From: an uncultured Bartonella sp.
Lineage (GTDB): Bacteria > Pseudomonadota > Alphaproteobacteria > Rhizobiales > Rhizobiaceae
Assembly: GCA_946480935.1 (NCBI GenBank)
Contig: CAMLLT010000003.1
Location: 1 to 42,458, forward strand
Reading direction: 5' to 3'
Length of the DNA: 42,458 nucleotides
Notes under the pieces: generated by a model
Seen by the model: only the letters and a program-made list of their open reading frames with translations
Databases searched by the model: none
What the model was told of the DNA's origin: nothing
Shown: positions 7,708 through 40,610 of the stretch, in pieces
How positions within the stretch are numbered: position 1 is the first letter of the stretch
How the letters are laid out: each line of letters begins with the position of its first letter
Position numbers and translations under genes: made by a program

Positions 7708-7799
7708 TGATAACTAATTGAAAATAATGGTTTTTCTATATGCATAACAGCTATGCAATATTGTCTATTGTTGTTCGGGTGGCATTGAAATAATTTACC

Positions 7800-7916
7800 T
7801 CTCGCTGGATTACTCCTCCTCCCAAATCCAGCAAGTTGAATGCAGCACCTCCTCCTCCCATAGCTGCATTCGGAATCAAAGGCTGCGCATCTCCTCCCGC
7901 GCGGCCTTTTTCTTTT
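7800..7916 (+). ncRNA. Cuckoo/alpha-r14-like small RNA with three anti-Shine-Dalgarno hairpins
   Basis: Three successive hairpins: 7804-7832 (8-bp stem, loop ACTCCTCCTCCCA), 7838-7871 (9-bp stem, loop ACCTCCTCCTCCCATA), 7878-7909 (11-bp stem with one G-U, loop ATCTCCTCCC) followed by TTTTTCTTTT; no ORF here. 5' end is an estimate. Confidence 0.82.
7878..7916 (+). terminator. Intrinsic terminator forming the 3' hairpin of the sRNA
   Basis: AAAGGCTGCGC-ATCTCCTCCC-GCGCGGCCTTT then T-rich tail. Confidence 0.85.
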
Positions 7917-14442: not shown

Positions 14443-15213
14443 TTAGGAGTTGCGATTCTGACCAAGGAATTGCAACAAGAAAACGAACATATTGATGAAG
14501 TCGAGATAGAGTGTCAAAGCACCCATAACAACCTTGCGGCCGCGTGTTTCTTCGGCATCGCCTTCATAATACATAACCTTGATTGTCTGTGTGTCGTAAG
14601 CGGTAAGACCAGCAAAAATAAGAACACCGATAATCGAGATTGCAAATTGCAATGCATTCGAGCCAAGGAACAAATTGACGACCATGGCAAGTAAAAGGCC
14701 AATTAACCCCATAAACAGGAAAGACCCCATGCCTGTCAGATCGCGCTTTGTTGTGTAACCATAGAGCGAAAGGGCGCCGAAAGAAGCCGCAGTGATAAAG
14801 AATGTCTGCGTAATGCTTGCAGGTGTATAACGCAAAATGATTGACGAAAGCGACAAACCGACGAGTGCTGCATAGACAAAAAACAATGCGCGTGCCGAAC
14901 TTGTGCTCAACGACCCGATTTTGAAGCTTAGAAAGAAAACTGCAATAAGCGGAGCAAACATCACAACATAAGCAAACGGTGAGGTATAGAAAGTAACACC
15001 GAATGATGTGAGATGAACGCCATTAGGTAATACATAAGGTGTCGGATCGCTTGTTGTTGCAAGTGAAGCAATCACAAACGCTGCAATACCTGTTATAACG
15101 AGCCCGATTGCCATCGCGTTGTAGACGCCGAGCATATAACTGCGCAGTCCCTGGTCAATGGAAGCATCGGCCTCGGTAACTGATGTCGGGCGAAAGTTTC
15201 TAAAATCAGCCAT
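14443..15213 (-). CDS. Bax inhibitor-1/YccA family membrane protein
   Basis: 256 aa; DQGLRSYMLGVYNAMAIGLVITGIAAF...AYDTQTIKVMYYEGD...GALTLYLDFINMFVFLLQFLG. Confidence 0.95.
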   Translation of the reverse strand: MADFRNFRPTSVTEADASIDQGLRSYMLGVYNAMAIGLVITGIAAFVIASLATTSDPTPYVLPNGVHLTSFGVTFYTSPFAYVVMFAPLIAVFFLSFKIGSLSTSSARALFFVYAALVGLSLSSIILRYTPASITQTFFITAASFGALSLYGYTTKRDLTGMGSFLFMGLIGLLLAMVVNLFLGSNALQFAISIIGVLIFAGLTAYDTQTIKVMYYEGDAEETRGRKVVMGALTLYLDFINMFVFLLQFLGQNRNS

Positions 15214-15378
15214 ATAAATAATCCTTTAGCTTGTGTTCCGGACGGTGTCGGAAAATGGCTGGAAAAACTCTCTTCCCCCATTTCAATCCCGGGCGCCGCT
15301 GGCGGAACCCCAGCATGCCTAACCGATATTATGGGCATTAATTCGATAAATTACAAGTCTTTCATTATTTCCAACACA

Positions 15379-31986: not shown

Positions 31987-32016
31987 ACTTCAAGGAGTCT
32001 TTAGACTCCTTGAAGT
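31987..32016. repeat. 14-bp perfect inverted repeat with 2-nt centre, between cyclic glucan synthetase and pncB
   Basis: ACTTCAAGGAGTCT-TT-AGACTCCTTGAAGT; abuts the stop codon of the glucan synthetase gene. Confidence 0.9.
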
Positions 32017-35000
32017 CAGTTGTTTATGGTCAGATTGATTTCATGATGTCCTGTCTTTTTCAGTCCGATGCCATTTTCAGGCTTTTCAACCTTCTTGTCG
32101 TCAACTGTCAAAACAGGATTTTTACCGCGATTAACCTTGATAACATAGGTTGCATTATCAAATTTGATGGTCGCTTCGTAACCCGGCCAATCTTTCGGCA
32201 GACATGGTTCGAGATAAAGTTTGGAACCATTGCGGTTAATGCCCAGAATAGATTCTGTAGCAGCACGGTAGAACCAACCGGCCGAACCCGTATACCATGT
32301 CCAGCCGCCCTGACCACGTCGTGGCTCGACCGAATATATATCGGCAGAAATCACATAAGGTTCGACACGATAGACATGAGGATTTTTCCCGTGGGAAATC
32401 GGGTTGATCATAGAAAAGACCTGATAGGCTTTGTCTTTGTCTCCGAGTTTGGCAAGTGCCAGAATGCTCCAGATTGCACCATGGGTATATTGACCACCAT
32501 TTTCGCGAATGCCGGCCGGATAACCCTTGATATACCCCGGTTCAAGTTCGGTCTTGTCAAAGGGAGGCCAGAACAGACGGATGAGTTGCCCTTTCTCGTC
32601 CAGCAAGTGCTCGAGCATGGATTGCATAGCCTGTTTTTGATGTTCTTCCGTTCCCATGCCGGAAATAACACTCCACGATTGGGCAATCGTATCAATCTGG
32701 CATTCGTCATTGGTGTGTGACCCCAAAGGCTCTCCATTATCGAAATAACCACGACGGTACCATTTTCCGTCCCATCCGCTGGTCTCAAGCGCTTTGGTCA
32801 GTGTTTCGAGATGCTGCGTCCATTTTTTGACGCGTTTTTCATCCTTACGTTCTTCGGCAATCGGAATGAAAGCTTGCAAGGCTGTTCCAAGGAACCAGCC
32901 AAGCCAGACACTTTCGCCTTTCCCTTCAATGCCCACAAGATTCATTCCGTCATTCCAGTCGCCGCCAAGCATTAACGGTAAACCATGTTCGCCGGTGCGT
33001 TTGACTGCAAGGTCAAGGGCAAGTGCGCAATGCTCGTAAAGAGTTGCGGTTTTTGGCGAAATGGCTGGCTGGAAATAGCTGTCATGCTGACCTTCCTTGA
33101 GTTTGTCGCCATCAATAAAGGCAATATCTGTATCAAGAAACGCATGATCGCCCGTGCTATTGACATAAAGCGCAGTACCATAACCGAGCCATGCCACGTC
33201 ATCGGAAATCAATGTTCTGACACCGGCGCCATTATCGGGCAGCCACCAATGTTGCACGTCGCCTTCCGGAAACTGGCGTGATGCGGCATTGATGATCTGT
33301 TCACGGGCGAGTTCGGGCTTAAGCAGCAAGAGTGACAATGTATCCTGCAACTGGTCGCGGAAACCGAACGCCCCACTTGCCTGATAAAATGCGGCTCTTG
33401 CCATGATGCGGCATGCATAGGTTTGATAAGGGAGCCAGTTATTGACCATAAGGTCGAATGAACGGTCATTTGTTTTGACTTGTAGGCCGGAAACAAAATC
33501 GGTCCATTGTTTTTTCTCTTTTTCAAGAACAGAGGTGAAAGTCTCTTTGCGTATGCTATCAAGGAGCTTTTCGGCTTCCAAACGATTTTTGGCATTACCG
33601 AGATAGAAGATAATCTCTTTCTTTTCACCGGCTTTCAATTCGATATCAAAAGCAAGTGCGGAGCATGGATCACGTCCTGCTTCAACCGTGTTAGAGAGCG
33701 GCTCGCCTTGACGGATCGCTTGCGGATGTTTGACAGTTCCGATCGAGCCGATGAACTCCGTTCTGTCGGCCGTATAACTTGAAGGTGCAAAGCTTGCCGC
33801 AATGAAGCTTACTTCTTCGGACTTCTCCGTATGATAAGGATTGCGAACAAAAAGCGCACCGCGTTTTTCGTCATAATCGGGAATGATGAAGGGAGCAGCT
33901 TTTGCCCTGACTGTGCCCAATACCCATTCGACATAATCGTAAAGCCTCAGGCTCCTCGGGCTCTTGTCTTCGTTTTTGATGACAAGGCGCGATAGCCTTA
34001 TCGGGCGTTTATTATCGACGGTATGGGTCAATTCCAGACTTATCGTTCCGTGTTTCGACGTGAATGTCGAATAGCCAAGGCCGTGGCGTGCTTCATAGAG
34101 CGCGCCATCATCACATTCGACAACCGAAACCGGCGAGAAACGTTTTAACGAGCGACGGTCAACAATATAAAGAGCCTCACCCGGACGGTTGACAACAGGG
34201 TCGTTCGCCCACGGTGTCAATTGGTAATCGCGGCTATTGCCCGACCACGTAAAACTCGACCCTTCAGCCGAAACGTGGAAACCGAAATGTTCGTTTGAAA
34301 TAACGTTAATCCATGGATTTGGCGTTGCATTTCTTCCCGAAAGACGAATGACATAGCTATTATCCTTGTCGAAACCGCCATAGCCATTCCAATAGGCAAG
34401 GTCTTTCCCATCAGGAAGCGGACAGGATTTATGCTGGTCGCCGATAATACCGATAGATGTAAATTGGCCTTGTTCAAGCGGCATAACAATCTCTTCGTGT
34501 TTGCCGCTTTTGCGTTGCGCAGCTTTACCATTGTTATGCGTCTTGGCAGATTGGGCAGCCTCCTCATCTTTATTGCGGTGGGAAAGGTCGGAATCGATAT
34601 TTTCCATGCGCTGCATCTGTTCGGACAAGGAGCCGTTTTGGGCTTGCAACACGATGCGGGCACTGGCAAGCAAAGTCTTGAAACTCTGCTCGTTCATCTG
34701 GTCACGGCGGACAGTGAAAATATGCTGGCGTCCATCTGCTTCGGCGGTGCGGTTGCGATAACCTTCGCACATCCATTCAATGGCGCGTTGGGTATCTTGC
34801 GCATAAGAAAAAGCCCGTTCGTTCAAAATGACAATATCGACAGTCAATCCGCGCATCCGCCAATATTCATGCGCTTTCAAAAGTCCGCGCAAGACTTCCA
34901 GATCGGCTTCATTATCAAGCCTGAGAAGGAAGATCGGAAAATCACCGGATATTGACATCGGCCATAAATCGGATTGTTTGCCAAGATTTTCAGCGAGCGC

Positions 35001-38000
35001 CTCCGAAGGTAAACGCCAAGTGCGATCGGGATAAATAAGCGATGTTGCATATTTCTGGTAAACGACAGATTCCTTTGGCTTGATACCAAGCTGGTAAAGC
35101 GACACTTGCGAACGTGTCCAGGCAAGCGAGAACTCGCGCTGGAATACATTCGGTTGACGGTAATATTCAACTTGGGACACGAGCTTTTCTTTTGAGTTTG
35201 CTGCAAATGTCCAGAAGATAAGTGTGGCTTTTTTGCGTGCCGGAACCCTAACACGACATCTTATTGCTGCGACAGGATCAAGCACACATCCCTCTGTTCC
35301 GGTCAGTGTCGCACCGCGGTCAAACGCGGCCGGACGGCGGATAGAACGACCACGACCGATAAAGACGCGCCGGTCGGTCTCGGCTTCCGCATCGCGAACG
35401 GCACCGGATGTATCGGTGACAAAATGGGCAACATGGATTTCCGGATCTTTCGGGTCGCGTTTGCGCCGTTTGGCATAAATTGTTCCGCCTTGATCGGCAA
35501 TCTCGGTTTCCACAAACATGCGTGCGAAGACCGTATGAGCCGCATCTGTCTCAGGCGTTGTCAATACCAGCTCGGCATAGGAAGTAATTTCAAGAATGCG
35601 GTCTTTCGAGGTGGTGTTGATAAGCTCGATACGTCGTCCTTCACCATCACCTTCGGATGCAACAATACATTCCACAGTCGATTTTATACCATCGACCGTT
35701 TTTGTATATTCGGCCTTTTCATCGGTGAAAACGGTTGAAGCTTCTTCATCGGCAACGCGCGTTGGTTCACCTGTTGCCGACCACCAGCGGCCGGAAGCAG
35801 GGTCACGCAAAAAGATGAAAGTGCCTTGCTGGTCTTCGGCTGCATCGGGCATGAAACGGGTAACAGCAATATTGTTCCAGCGACTATAGCCGGAACCTTT
35901 GCCTGTCAACATGACCGAATAGTTCCCATTTGACAAAAGCACAGTCGAACGTGGCTTGGTGAGTGGGGCTTTGATAACGCGAACCGGTGCGTCTTCAAAG
36001 CCGCCGGCATCACTGCGCATCGGATTTGCCGTTTTTGCATGAACCATAGGAATTTCACGCGGTGCTTTTTCCTGTAACAGAAGCTGTGCCGCTTCAATCA
36101 CCGGATCGCTATGGAAACGATCCCGCATGCGACCGTCGAAAATGACATTATCAATTGCCAGAATAGACATGCCGTGGTGGTGTGCATAATAATTTTTGAC
36201 GACAGCATATTTTTCGCCTTCACGCACACGCGCCGGTGTGAAATCGACCGAGTCATGAAAACCGTATTCGCCAAGTGCTCCAAGTTTGCGCAAGCGTGCA
36301 AGATTGGCAACTGCTTCTGTCGGCATATATTGGGACGCCAGAATGCTTGCATAAGGCGCAATAACAGCATTGCGCGAAAGCCCACGTTGAAGACCGAGAC
36401 TGGGAACACCAAAGTTGGAATATTGGTAATTCATCTGTTGGTCACGGGCATTAAAGGCTGCTTCCGAAATACCCCATGGCAATCCGCGTTCATTGGCATA
36501 TTGGATTTGTCTGCGAACAACGAGCCGGTTTGTCTGGTCAAGGAGCGATCCCAAAGGCTCGCGCATGACAAGCGGTGGCATTAAATATTCGAACATTGAA
36601 CCCGACCAGGAAAGCAAAGCGCCTTTCCAGCCGACCGGAACCAGCATACGACCAAGGCGGAACCAATGCTCGACCTTGACATCGCCTTTGGCAATGGCAA
36701 ACAGGCTCGAAAGACGGGCTTCCGAAGCAAGCAGATCATAGCAGCTTTCGTCAAGCTCGTTTTCCTGAACACGATAGCCGATTGACATCAAACGCCGTTC
36801 CTGTCGTTCAAGGAAATCGAACTTCATATCAAAGGCAAACTGACGGGCTTTTGCCGAAAGATCACTTAAAGTCTTGCGTAAAGCCTCGGTATCATGATCA
36901 GCTGTAGCGTCATGAGTGTGAGCTTCGCATGTCTCGATCAAACATTCGGCCCAAGAAACAGCATGACGTGATTCATCGCTGCCGATTTCGCCGTCAAGCT
37001 CGCTTGTGAGACGCCCTATATCATTGGCGGCCGTTGTGAGATTTGCTGTGCGGAACGTTGCCGTTTCCGGTTCATCCATAATCGAGCGGACGGCCCTGCG
37101 GAAATTGGCAATGCGTTCATCAATTCTTCTGCGAAGCGGGCGCAGGATGCGACGGTCATCGGGTATGAGGTTTAATGTTTCCTGCAAAATGTCATTAACA
37201 TCAAGGAGGCCTGCGAGATCACCTTGTAGGAATACCGATGGTGCTTCAGACCATTCTTTCAAGGCCGCAGCCAGTGTTACAAGATGGCCGGCAAGATTGC
37301 CCGAGTCGACAGTCGAGACATAGCTCGGTACAAGGGGGCGCAAAGTGTCGGTTTCATACCAGTTGAAGAAATGCCCGCGGAATCTCTCCATTTTATCCAT
37401 TGTATCGAGTGTGCGTTCGATACGCTGGATGGCATCATCAAAACTGACCCAGCCGAAATCACGTGCAGCGACTGTTGATAGCAAATAGACGCCGATATTG
37501 GTTGGCGAGGTTCTACGCGCGAGAACCGGTACCGGATCTTCCTGATAATTGTCGGGAGGAAGAAAGTGGTTATCGGCATTGGCGAATGTTTCGTAATAAT
37601 GCCAGGTACGGCGAGCAATACGCCGAAGTTCATTTTTATCGGATGGCCGGATTTCAAGCGAATCCTGAAAGGCAGCCGAACGGCTTACAATCCAGGCAAT
37701 AAGCGGTGAAAAGAACCAGGCAAGGCCAAAGGGCAGGGCTACAAAGACAGCAGAATTATGAAGTGCTGCCGGAAGCGCAATCGAAATCACACCAATCAAT
37801 GTCGCCGGCCACATGGTGGTGACATAATAGGAAAGCGTGTTGGGCGAAGAACGCGTTGCTGCCGATGTTTTCCATTCAAGCAGATGTTTGTGTGAAACAA
37901 ACATACGATAGAGCGTACGGATAATCGCATCAACCATATAAAATGCCGAATAGGCGAGGAAGGTTGTGCGCAGTGCAACATCTGCCGTGCTTGTTGCAAT

Positions 38001-40610
38001 ATTTGTCAATACCGATTGGAAGTGGCCACGCAAGGAATTATCCATGCTTGTCGGCATAATGTTGCGCAGAACACCAAGTGTGGGGGCAATAAACATGCCC
38101 AAAAGCAGAAATAATTGCCAGAAAACAGCCGTATGAAGCGGCAAAGCACACCAACCGACAAGCGAGGCAATAATCCACATGAGCGGTGTCAGAGAACGCC
38201 GCAAATTATCCTGCATTTTCCAGCGGGTAATGAGGTTGATATTGTGACGGGTGAAAAGATAGGGCAGCAATTGCCAGTCACCGCGGATCCAGCGATGATG
38301 ACGGGCAACATCGACATTATAAGCCGTCGGATAATCTTCAACCACCTCGACATCGCTCACAAAACCGACACGCGCATAACCGCCTTCAAGAAGGTCATGG
38401 CTCAACACACTATTTTCGCGCACTTTGTCGGCAAGCGCTATTTCAAACGCATCAATGTCATAAAGGCCTTTGCCGGTATAGGTTCCTTCGCCCAAAAGGT
38501 CCTGATAGGTATCGGAGACGGCAAAAACATAAGGATCTATGCCGCGATTGACCGAAAAGACACGCTGCAGGAATGAAGCATCATCACCGGTGGTAAGCGA
38601 GGGTGTCACACGCGGCTGAAGAATGCCATAACCGCTTTTAACCGTATGTGTTTTCGGGTCAATGACCGGACGATTCAATGGATGATTGAGTTTTCCGACG
38701 AGGCGGGTGACGGCCTCGGTGGTGAGCCTTGTGTCGGAATCAAGCGTCATGACAAAGCGGCAATCCATTGGCAGACGTGGGTCTGTCGGGAAGAAACTGG
38801 TATCACGGTCACCGCGCAAAAGCAGATTCAATTCATGCAGCTTGCCACGTTTACGCTCCCAGCCCATATAGCAATCTTCGCTGGGATTGTACAAACGGTG
38901 ACGATGTAAAATGAAAAATAGTGGCTGCCCGTCACCGCGATAATACCGGTTAAGATCGGCAATACCTTTTTGCGCATATTCGAGAAGATCGCGATCGTCT
39001 GCCGTTTCTTCCTTTTTCGAGTCGGCCCAGTCAGTTACCAAGGCAAAATAAATGGCCCCTTGCGGGTTAGAGAGATAGTGAACTTCGAGGTTCCTTATCT
39101 GCTCGTCAATAGAATCGCGCGAGGTTATCATTGTCGGAACGACAACAAGCGTTTTGGCTTCTTCCGGAATGCCGTCCTTATATTCATATCCTATCAACCG
39201 GCGTGGTTCGACAGTCCAGGCAACCAGAGTATTGAAGAGCGCAAAAGCGGTATCCATTGTCGGGAAAAGTGCCAGTGCTGTGAAGGTTAGCGACAATGCG
39301 TGGCTCAAGCCGGTTCCCCTCAGCAATGCATAAACTGCAAGCAGGATAAGAATCGTTATGACAGAAACCGGAATGGCAATGCTGAAAATTTTCATCCCGC
39401 GGAAGGAACGCATGAAACGGGTCGAGAACGGGCAATCATAATTGCAAGCCTGTTCAAAAGCTTCTCGTCCAGGTCCCACAAGATACCAAGCAACCGATGC
39501 ACCAGTCGCGACACCGTCTTTCTTTGTATTCTCGACCATGTCGATTGCTTTTTTTGTCACTTCCAGTTCGGTTAACGGCGAACGACGGGCAATTTTTTCG
39601 ATGATGACGCGATAGGTATTGCGCGATGGAAAGTCGATTTCTCCGAAATCGCTGTTTTCACGCAACATGAAATCGACATGGCTGACCGTTTCGAACCAGT
39701 ATGTCCAATCAACGTCATCAATCGCTTTCAGGGCGCGGATGATATTGCCCATGGTCACACCGCCGGTTGATTGGCGCGAATGTTCTTCGGCTGTTGCCGA
39801 TTCAGGGTCGCTGCCATGACGATGTAACTGCTCTTCGAGCCAGTTCAAGGCTGTTGTTGAATCAACAGAAGCGCCACGCAAACGATAGAGAAGATGGGCC
39901 GCAAAAGTCGGGTCGGCAACAAGTGCCTCATAGGTTGAAAAAATGCTCTGAAGTGCATTATCATTTTCAGCCAGAGCCATTTGGTCAGCGGCCTGATTTG
40001 CAAATCGCCGCATCCGGCGGGCTTTTTCAATGCGCATGGAAAGCCGGCGTGCATTTTCGATGAGAACCATACGGACAGCCGAAGGCAAAGCCCATAATTC
40101 GCCAATCTGGAAATCTGCAACCTGTTGGTAACCATTGACCATGGCCGTTAAAGTTTTAAGCGAAAAACTGCTGTCGGTATGCGCAACATAAAGCCAGGCT
40201 AGAGCGAAAATCCTTGGCAGTTCATTTTCACCTTTATAAGGGGGAAGCTGTTTGACAAATGCACGCGGAAAATCACGCCGCGCCTGCTGGATGGTTTTAT
40301 CGATCGTATAATGGTTATCGAGCAGCCATTGGGCAGCCGGTGTAATGGTCTCGTTATTGCGAGCGGCGGCATCGGTCGAGCGGAAGGTATGCAAAATGAG
40401 CTTGGAATTCTCGGTGAGCCGTTCTCTAAAATCGAATGGCGTATATTCCGGCAAAACAATTTTTTTGCCCTCGGCCATTTCATGGGCCAGTTGCTGCAGC
40501 TCGTCTTCCGACTTGAAGGTCGAGCGGATTGGAAAAGCTGTATCAGGAAGGTAGCGTATTTCCGTTTGCTGAGAAAGAAGCCATTTAATTGATGATGCAG
40601 TTTCCGCCAT
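32016..40610 (-). CDS. ndvB: Cyclic beta-1,2-glucan synthetase (NdvB/ChvB/Cgs; GT84 + GH94 domains)
   Basis: 2864 aa; MTLDSDTRLTTEAV, RHHRWIRGDWQLLPYLF, repeated glycosyl-hydrolase-associated domains, C-terminal phosphorylase-like region FGFRDQLQDTLSLL...GGDWNDGMNLVG...RGQGGWTWYTGSAGWFYRA. Confidence 0.97.
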   Translation of the reverse strand: MAETASSIKWLLSQQTEIRYLPDTAFPIRSTFKSEDELQQLAHEMAEGKKIVLPEYTPFDFRERLTENSKLILHTFRSTDAAARNNETITPAAQWLLDNHYTIDKTIQQARRDFPRAFVKQLPPYKGENELPRIFALAWLYVAHTDSSFSLKTLTAMVNGYQQVADFQIGELWALPSAVRMVLIENARRLSMRIEKARRMRRFANQAADQMALAENDNALQSIFSTYEALVADPTFAAHLLYRLRGASVDSTTALNWLEEQLHRHGSDPESATAEEHSRQSTGGVTMGNIIRALKAIDDVDWTYWFETVSHVDFMLRENSDFGEIDFPSRNTYRVIIEKIARRSPLTELEVTKKAIDMVENTKKDGVATGASVAWYLVGPGREAFEQACNYDCPFSTRFMRSFRGMKIFSIAIPVSVITILILLAVYALLRGTGLSHALSLTFTALALFPTMDTAFALFNTLVAWTVEPRRLIGYEYKDGIPEEAKTLVVVPTMITSRDSIDEQIRNLEVHYLSNPQGAIYFALVTDWADSKKEETADDRDLLEYAQKGIADLNRYYRGDGQPLFFILHRHRLYNPSEDCYMGWERKRGKLHELNLLLRGDRDTSFFPTDPRLPMDCRFVMTLDSDTRLTTEAVTRLVGKLNHPLNRPVIDPKTHTVKSGYGILQPRVTPSLTTGDDASFLQRVFSVNRGIDPYVFAVSDTYQDLLGEGTYTGKGLYDIDAFEIALADKVRENSVLSHDLLEGGYARVGFVSDVEVVEDYPTAYNVDVARHHRWIRGDWQLLPYLFTRHNINLITRWKMQDNLRRSLTPLMWIIASLVGWCALPLHTAVFWQLFLLLGMFIAPTLGVLRNIMPTSMDNSLRGHFQSVLTNIATSTADVALRTTFLAYSAFYMVDAIIRTLYRMFVSHKHLLEWKTSAATRSSPNTLSYYVTTMWPATLIGVISIALPAALHNSAVFVALPFGLAWFFSPLIAWIVSRSAAFQDSLEIRPSDKNELRRIARRTWHYYETFANADNHFLPPDNYQEDPVPVLARRTSPTNIGVYLLSTVAARDFGWVSFDDAIQRIERTLDTMDKMERFRGHFFNWYETDTLRPLVPSYVSTVDSGNLAGHLVTLAAALKEWSEAPSVFLQGDLAGLLDVNDILQETLNLIPDDRRILRPLRRRIDERIANFRRAVRSIMDEPETATFRTANLTTAANDIGRLTSELDGEIGSDESRHAVSWAECLIETCEAHTHDATADHDTEALRKTLSDLSAKARQFAFDMKFDFLERQERRLMSIGYRVQENELDESCYDLLASEARLSSLFAIAKGDVKVEHWFRLGRMLVPVGWKGALLSWSGSMFEYLMPPLVMREPLGSLLDQTNRLVVRRQIQYANERGLPWGISEAAFNARDQQMNYQYSNFGVPSLGLQRGLSRNAVIAPYASILASQYMPTEAVANLARLRKLGALGEYGFHDSVDFTPARVREGEKYAVVKNYYAHHHGMSILAIDNVIFDGRMRDRFHSDPVIEAAQLLLQEKAPREIPMVHAKTANPMRSDAGGFEDAPVRVIKAPLTKPRSTVLLSNGNYSVMLTGKGSGYSRWNNIAVTRFMPDAAEDQQGTFIFLRDPASGRWWSATGEPTRVADEEASTVFTDEKAEYTKTVDGIKSTVECIVASEGDGEGRRIELINTTSKDRILEITSYAELVLTTPETDAAHTVFARMFVETEIADQGGTIYAKRRKRDPKDPEIHVAHFVTDTSGAVRDAEAETDRRVFIGRGRSIRRPAAFDRGATLTGTEGCVLDPVAAIRCRVRVPARKKATLIFWTFAANSKEKLVSQVEYYRQPNVFQREFSLAWTRSQVSLYQLGIKPKESVVYQKYATSLIYPDRTWRLPSEALAENLGKQSDLWPMSISGDFPIFLLRLDNEADLEVLRGLLKAHEYWRMRGLTVDIVILNERAFSYAQDTQRAIEWMCEGYRNRTAEADGRQHIFTVRRDQMNEQSFKTLLASARIVLQAQNGSLSEQMQRMENIDSDLSHRNKDEEAAQSAKTHNNGKAAQRKSGKHEEIVMPLEQGQFTSIGIIGDQHKSCPLPDGKDLAYWNGYGGFDKDNSYVIRLSGRNATPNPWINVISNEHFGFHVSAEGSSFTWSGNSRDYQLTPWANDPVVNRPGEALYIVDRRSLKRFSPVSVVECDDGALYEARHGLGYSTFTSKHGTISLELTHTVDNKRPIRLSRLVIKNEDKSPRSLRLYDYVEWVLGTVRAKAAPFIIPDYDEKRGALFVRNPYHTEKSEEVSFIAASFAPSSYTADRTEFIGSIGTVKHPQAIRQGEPLSNTVEAGRDPCSALAFDIELKAGEKKEIIFYLGNAKNRLEAEKLLDSIRKETFTSVLEKEKKQWTDFVSGLQVKTNDRSFDLMVNNWLPYQTYACRIMARAAFYQASGAFGFRDQLQDTLSLLLLKPELAREQIINAASRQFPEGDVQHWWLPDNGAGVRTLISDDVAWLGYGTALYVNSTGDHAFLDTDIAFIDGDKLKEGQHDSYFQPAISPKTATLYEHCALALDLAVKRTGEHGLPLMLGGDWNDGMNLVGIEGKGESVWLGWFLGTALQAFIPIAEERKDEKRVKKWTQHLETLTKALETSGWDGKWYRRGYFDNGEPLGSHTNDECQIDTIAQSWSVISGMGTEEHQKQAMQSMLEHLLDEKGQLIRLFWPPFDKTELEPGYIKGYPAGIRENGGQYTHGAIWSILALAKLGDKDKAYQVFSMINPISHGKNPHVYRVEPYVISADIYSVEPRRGQGGWTWYTGSAGWFYRAATESILGINRNGSKLYLEPCLPKDWPGYEATIKFDNATYVIKVNRGKNPVLTVDDKKVEKPENGIGLKKTGHHEINLTINN

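Follow-up and report, generated by a model that had tools for sequence, protein, structure and literature searches.

NfeR1 (Smr14C2/SmelC397) of Sinorhizobium meliloti, an αr14 RNA, silences mRNAs through three redundant anti-Shine-Dalgarno (anti-SD) loops and is activated by LsrB (PMC10746234). The box GCAT-N3-TG-N3-T is the VtlR/LsrB box of Brucella, Agrobacterium, and S. meliloti (PMC7486931, PMC8844928). In the DUF1127-CcsR (CIN1) arrangement, known from Rhodobacter ccaF1-CcsR (PMC10253847), a DUF1127 gene lies directly upstream of the RNA on the same transcript. AbcR1 and AbcR2 (αr15, RF02345) are anti-SD small RNAs (sRNAs) that silence transporter mRNAs under LsrB/VtlR control. Within Bartonella, BbsR14 of B. 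bacilliformis was detected by RNA-seq as an sRNA with two TTCCTCCTAA loops, and the main text of the paper that describes it does not mention ar14 (PMC7717549). A literature search, with most subscription papers outside its reach, found none linking Bartonella with ar14 or NfeR1.

The locus described here lies in a 42,458-nt stretch of DNA from an uncultured Bartonella sp. (hereafter the window). It is quite probably the gene of an autonomous αr14 trans-acting sRNA of ~110 nt, the counterpart of NfeR1, that would be activated by LsrB/VtlR and would block mainly the translation of transporter mRNAs. Like NfeR1, the RNA has three hairpins, CCUCCUCCC-type loops, a terminator hairpin, a length of about 115 nt, and an LsrB/VtlR-type box upstream, but ntrB is an implausible target for it. 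The DUF1127-CcsR systems, such as ccaF1-CcsR1-4 of Rhodobacter sphaeroides, share its cuckoo-type arrays of anti-SD loops; the window copy, however, stands alone, with a GT25 gene instead of a DUF1127 gene upstream. With AbcR1/AbcR2 it would share anti-SD action, silencing of transporter mRNAs, and LsrB/VtlR control, whereas it matches another covariance model, and the host's abcR, the only ar15 match in the genome, is a separate locus on contig C189. It also differs from rhizobial αr14 loci. The Bartonella box has the opposite orientation to that at the few top-scoring rhizobial loci having a box, and the window's promoter elements differ from the αr14 promoter CTTAGAC-N17-CTATAT. The L,D-transpeptidase encoded in the window shares 97-99% identity with its counterparts in Bartonella sp. 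M0177 and B. apihabitans BBC0178, and on this protein identity the host is therefore a honeybee-gut Bartonella close to B. apihabitans.

Family membership and structure

An Rfam cmscan of the window matched RF02344 (ar14) over the full model (1-123) at 83.1 bits, well over the gathering score of 58.8, which bears out the αr14/cuckoo assignment made earlier from the sequence. A standard scan thus detects this member, contrary to the expectation that it could easily be left unannotated; what the cut-off misses instead is most Bartonella orthologs, since it was passed in 8/37 Bartonella genomes. Among the Rhizobiaceae genomes sampled, 146/151 contain ar14, mostly in several copies each, compared with 0/14 control genomes. 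Because the family is catalogued and this widespread, the locus itself is ordinary: it is a genuine ar14 member and a new example of a known family.

The earlier note had described three adjacent hairpins with anti-SD loops, the last followed by a T-rich tail, and these are present at 7800-7916 (Table 1). The RNA folds with a minimum free energy (MFE) of -44.1 kcal/mol, whereas shuffled sequences average -22.0 (sd 3.0), giving z = -7.4; 0/200 shuffles folded as low. The family's nine-base motif CCUCCUCCC is unpaired in every loop, exact in loops 1 and 2 and matched at 8/9 bases in loop 3, which reads UCUCCUCCC and differs at the first base. CTCCTCC has five matches in the 42-kb window, all inside the three hairpin loops. 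Fold and covariation agree on three consecutive hairpins, the last being a Rho-independent terminator whose stem is directly followed by TTCTTTT and whose loop is itself an anti-SD motif.

Table 1. Coordinates of the window RNA and its upstream elements.
Feature	Position	Strand	Details
ar14 small RNA (RF02344 match)	7795-7912	+	83.1 bits, E = 1.1e-13; Bartonella model, 105.6 bits
Predicted ar14 transcript ends	about 7802 to 7914	+	Probable
Hairpin 1	7804-7832	+	Stem 7804-7811/7825-7832; loop ACTCCTCCTCCCA, 7812-7824; from the fold
Hairpin 2	7838-7871	+	Stem 7838-7846/7863-7871; loop ACCTCCTCCTCCCATA, 7847-7862; from the fold
Hairpin 3, intrinsic terminator with T-rich tail	7878-7916	+	Stem 7878-7888/7899-7909; loop ATCTCCTCCC, 7889-7898; from the fold
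Operator-like block ATGCATAACAGCTATGCAAT	7740-7759		Upstream alignment of Bartonella loci; predicted operator
Putative sigma-70-type promoter	7768-7796	+	TTGTTG (7768-7773), 17 nt, TAATTT (7791-7796); weak consensus match

The earlier note had also named compensatory changes in the stems of relatives as a check, and two alignments contain them. In the first, of 25 Bartonella sequences (24 distinct), standard pairs fill 95.4% of pair cells, two-sided changes occur in 7/28 pairs, and the covariation score was reached by 0/500 shuffles. With 63 copies (59 distinct sequences) on the genus model, the corresponding values are 94.2% and 9/28, in an alignment that was fitted to this model and so leans towards its pairing. 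Sliding the partners by 1-3 columns destroyed the pairing in both alignments. In the 63-copy set, helix 1 has two-sided changes in 4/8 pairs, and the pair cells are standard at 99.1% in hairpin 2 and 94.0% in hairpin 3.

Chance hairpins or a non-functional relic are an exceedingly improbable account of the locus. Nothing speaks for it beyond the shortness of the loop motif and the poor promoter consensus, and it is opposed by the Rfam E-value of 1.1e-13 and by the stem covariation. It is further opposed by detection of the RNA in 61/61 genomes of the genus with a model built from 25 Bartonella sequences, a count that is partly circular, with more than half of the genomes outside the model-building set.

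Genomic setting and upstream box

Domain matches on either side confirm the position first read for the RNA, between a GT25 gene (PF01755) and an L,D-transpeptidase gene (PF03734). On the same strand, only about 90 nt separate the end of the GT25 gene from the RNA. The hairpins could thus belong to the 3' UTR and terminator of the GT25 mRNA, with any sRNA being a processing product that has no promoter of its own; the DUF1127-CcsR RNAs, which are related, arise by processing of an mRNA 3' end (PMC10253847). We consider this origin very unlikely: the DNA that separates GT25 from the RNA holds a conserved operator and shows promoter-like spacing. Moreover, in a genus member outside the bee clade (L013), the RNA immediately follows the same ABC-3 metal permease, without an intervening GT25 gene. 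Its own conserved upstream region and the place beside the metal ABC permease, kept where GT25 is absent, argue for an independent gene.

Alignment of the upstream regions shows a block, ATGCATAnCAGCnATGCA, that is conserved across the genus. On the minus strand, the operator-like block of the window reads GCAT-AGC-TG-TTA-T and matches the published VtlR/LsrB box. The pattern GCAT-N3-TG-N3-T alone is weak, having 11 matches in the window, and its weight comes from its conserved position. It is found within 90 nt upstream in 59/63 Bartonella copies and in 0/63 in each of the two 90-nt intervals further upstream, nearly always in inverted orientation and 52-56 nt before the match start. The loose 15-base VtlR motif CAATGCAGCCATGCA was also tried and proved uninformative, with 20 window matches at 11 of 15 bases; the published form and its position were therefore used.

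In the same alignment, the TTGT and the downstream TA of the putative promoter are conserved. A simple promoter scan of the window did not report the TTGTTG/TAATTT pair at 7768-7796. The -35/-10 elements match the family promoter consensus poorly, and the LsrB/VtlR-type box is conserved. By analogy with S. meliloti, where LsrB activates NfeR1 (PMC10746234), we infer that the ar14 gene would be under LsrB/VtlR control in Bartonella. The comparison across the genus suggests that Bartonella as a whole has the circuit in which LsrB/VtlR acts on an anti-SD sRNA, as known from rhizobia, Agrobacterium, and Brucella.

Loop rewiring across Bartonella

The loops were read for 63 copies, 13 from the bee clade and B. 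tamiae and 50 from other genomes. All 13 copies of the first group have CUCCUCCC in all three loops. In the other 50, loop 1 is of the UUUCCUCCUAA type and became UUCCUCCUAA, with CCUCC retained in 49 and CUCCUCCC in 0; loop 2 retains CUCCUCCC in 14 and contains a run of at least six C in 29; and loop 3 has lost the motif in 50/50. Despite this loop change, the genus has largely retained stems 2 and 3 as well as the upstream box. The earlier claim that the loops are kept while the stems differ is accurate among the three hairpins and within the bee clade; genus-wide it fails, the loops having changed more than stems 2 and 3.

The genomes with rewritten loops belong to what we take to be mammal-blood, arthropod-borne Bartonella species. 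The result is a natural experiment that could test anti-SD target choice: stems and operator are the same, while the loops are intact in bee symbionts and rewritten elsewhere. What deserves follow-up is the rewiring of the loops and the upstream box that the loci share, whereas the locus itself mainly needs annotation. All 13/13 NtrC-positive genomes fall in the clade with three intact loops, and 48/48 NtrC-negative genomes have lost loop 3. NtrBC was nevertheless rejected as the cause of loop retention, as the pattern reflects just one split between clades and ntrB offers no site that fits.

In most species outside the bee/B. tamiae clade, a poly(C) tract of variable length has taken the place of loop 2, its longest C run being mostly 6-11. 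If this tract slips within populations, the RNA would have a phase-variable loop that shifts which start sites get silenced, an idea that we regard as a long shot. As a separate observation, the poly(C) length of loop 2 differs between close species (L024, L029, L124, L191, and others), reaching 11 C. At L168 (1501-1526), the RNA 5' end of this species, AGGAGGAG, can pair with CCUCCU of loop 1 in the MFE fold and would hide this loop.

Two genomes of 1.4 Mb each (G009 and G223; loci L194 and L195) carry two ar14 copies in tandem, and each copy has an upstream box of its own; in each genome, one of the two has exactly TTCCTCCTAA in loops 1 and 2. Because of this exact match, BbsR14 is probably an ar14 member, its identity resting on the loop motif, and a family is thereby offered for this orphan sRNA. 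Copies of the BbsR14 type differ from the window RNA in the loss of the third motif and in the tandem second copy.

Related loci in the same genome

A second ar14-like copy, on contig C7, scores 56.3 bits, under the Rfam cut-off, and lies immediately behind a 47-aa DUF1127 gene (PF06568). Its loops have drifted to CUCCCCUC, UUCCUUCCCUU, and UUCCUCCC, and its fold is still strong (z = -7.6). Together, this DUF1127 gene and the diverged ar14 RNA behind it make up a CIN1 locus (L113, 2256-2612; genome G000). The CIN1 promoter has the box and flanking bases in common with the window copy, in line with the activation of DUF1127 genes by VtlR in Brucella (PMC12595884). Directly downstream of the CIN1 unit, at 2735-2885 of L113, the DUF1127 end and hairpin array recur in tandem as a decayed copy, with an alignment score of 113 against a shuffled maximum of 38.

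The coupling of a DUF1127 protein gene to a diverged ar14 RNA in this genome fits loops that bind a protein, for example a DUF1127 RNA-binding protein, or that titrate another RNA as a sponge or decoy. CcaF1 of Rhodobacter, itself a DUF1127 protein, binds the CcsR RNAs (PMC10253847). Such a role is nonetheless unlikely for the window RNA, given that its family relative NfeR1 acts as a repressor of mRNAs and no longer does so once the three loops are mutated (PMC10746234).

The genome has one abcR (ar15), at 55.6 bits on contig C189, beside a LysR gene. Upstream of abcR is GCATGGCTGACGT, which matches the same GCAT-N3-TG-N3-T box. In this abcR-LysR locus (L167, 91-1606), the LysR gene resembles VtlR/LsrB by context. 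A third ar14 hit, at 17.7 bits on contig C9, was taken as chance, since three unrelated control genomes match at the same threshold.

Predicted targets and mode of action

As a trans-acting silencer of mRNAs, the RNA would probably be switched on by a LysR-type LsrB/VtlR regulator acting at the operator some 53 nt upstream. The three loops would expose CUCCUCCC-type anti-SD sequences to ribosome-binding sites of the unusually long GGGAGGAG type and, by pairing with them, block the translation of mRNAs that mainly encode carbon and nutrient transporters.

Target candidates come from pattern searches only, in which many GGGAGGAG-N-ATG matches are not gene starts. In the window's own genome, the starts behind GGGAGGAG are those of two MFS transporters (one shared with G020), an ABC substrate-binding protein, and a 97-aa protein. 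Such starts are also found for an L-lactate permease in G020 and for CstA in G014, and a further GGGAGGAG gene encodes a metallo-beta-lactamase-fold protein with an uncertain start. The genes behind AAGGAGA in G020 are largely housekeeping, including those for L20, S18, NusA, the RNA polymerase beta' subunit, a GroEL-type chaperonin, ribosome recycling factor, and glycyl-tRNA synthetase. Transporters make up 5/7 distinct GGGAGGAG genes against 3/22 AAGGAGA genes (Fisher p = 0.008), an enrichment that is small, post hoc, and exploratory and that sets three pooled genomes against a single one. Close species have few of the GGGAGGAG genes in common.

For the bee loops, pairing with GGGAGGAG sites reaches about -15 to -19 kcal/mol, compared with -12 to -14 for the 16S tail. 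All pairing at AAGGAGA sites is weak, and the loops do no better than the 16S tail in 2/3 examples. These energies suggest a basis for target selectivity. Judged from the candidate start sites, the likely function is the silencing of transporter mRNAs.

The start regions of ntrB, the known rhizobial target of NfeR1, have no GGAGGA-type site, and their pairing is about -5 to -10 kcal/mol (-5.4 to -9.8) against a background mean of -9.1. NfeR1-type pairing of the loops with the ntrB start is therefore not seen, though ntrB is present in the bee clade, and with no fit in this start region the rhizobial NtrBC loop cannot be carried over unchanged.

Other features of the window

The only other Rfam match in the window is a ybhL leader (15231-15321, minus strand; 56.1 bits). 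It lies upstream of a gene for a Bax1-I family membrane protein (14443-15213, minus strand), which is the expected pairing. The minus strand at 32016-40610 encodes a protein of 2,863 aa that combines GH94 domains with a glucoamylase domain and resembles a cyclic beta-1,2-glucan synthase in size and make-up.
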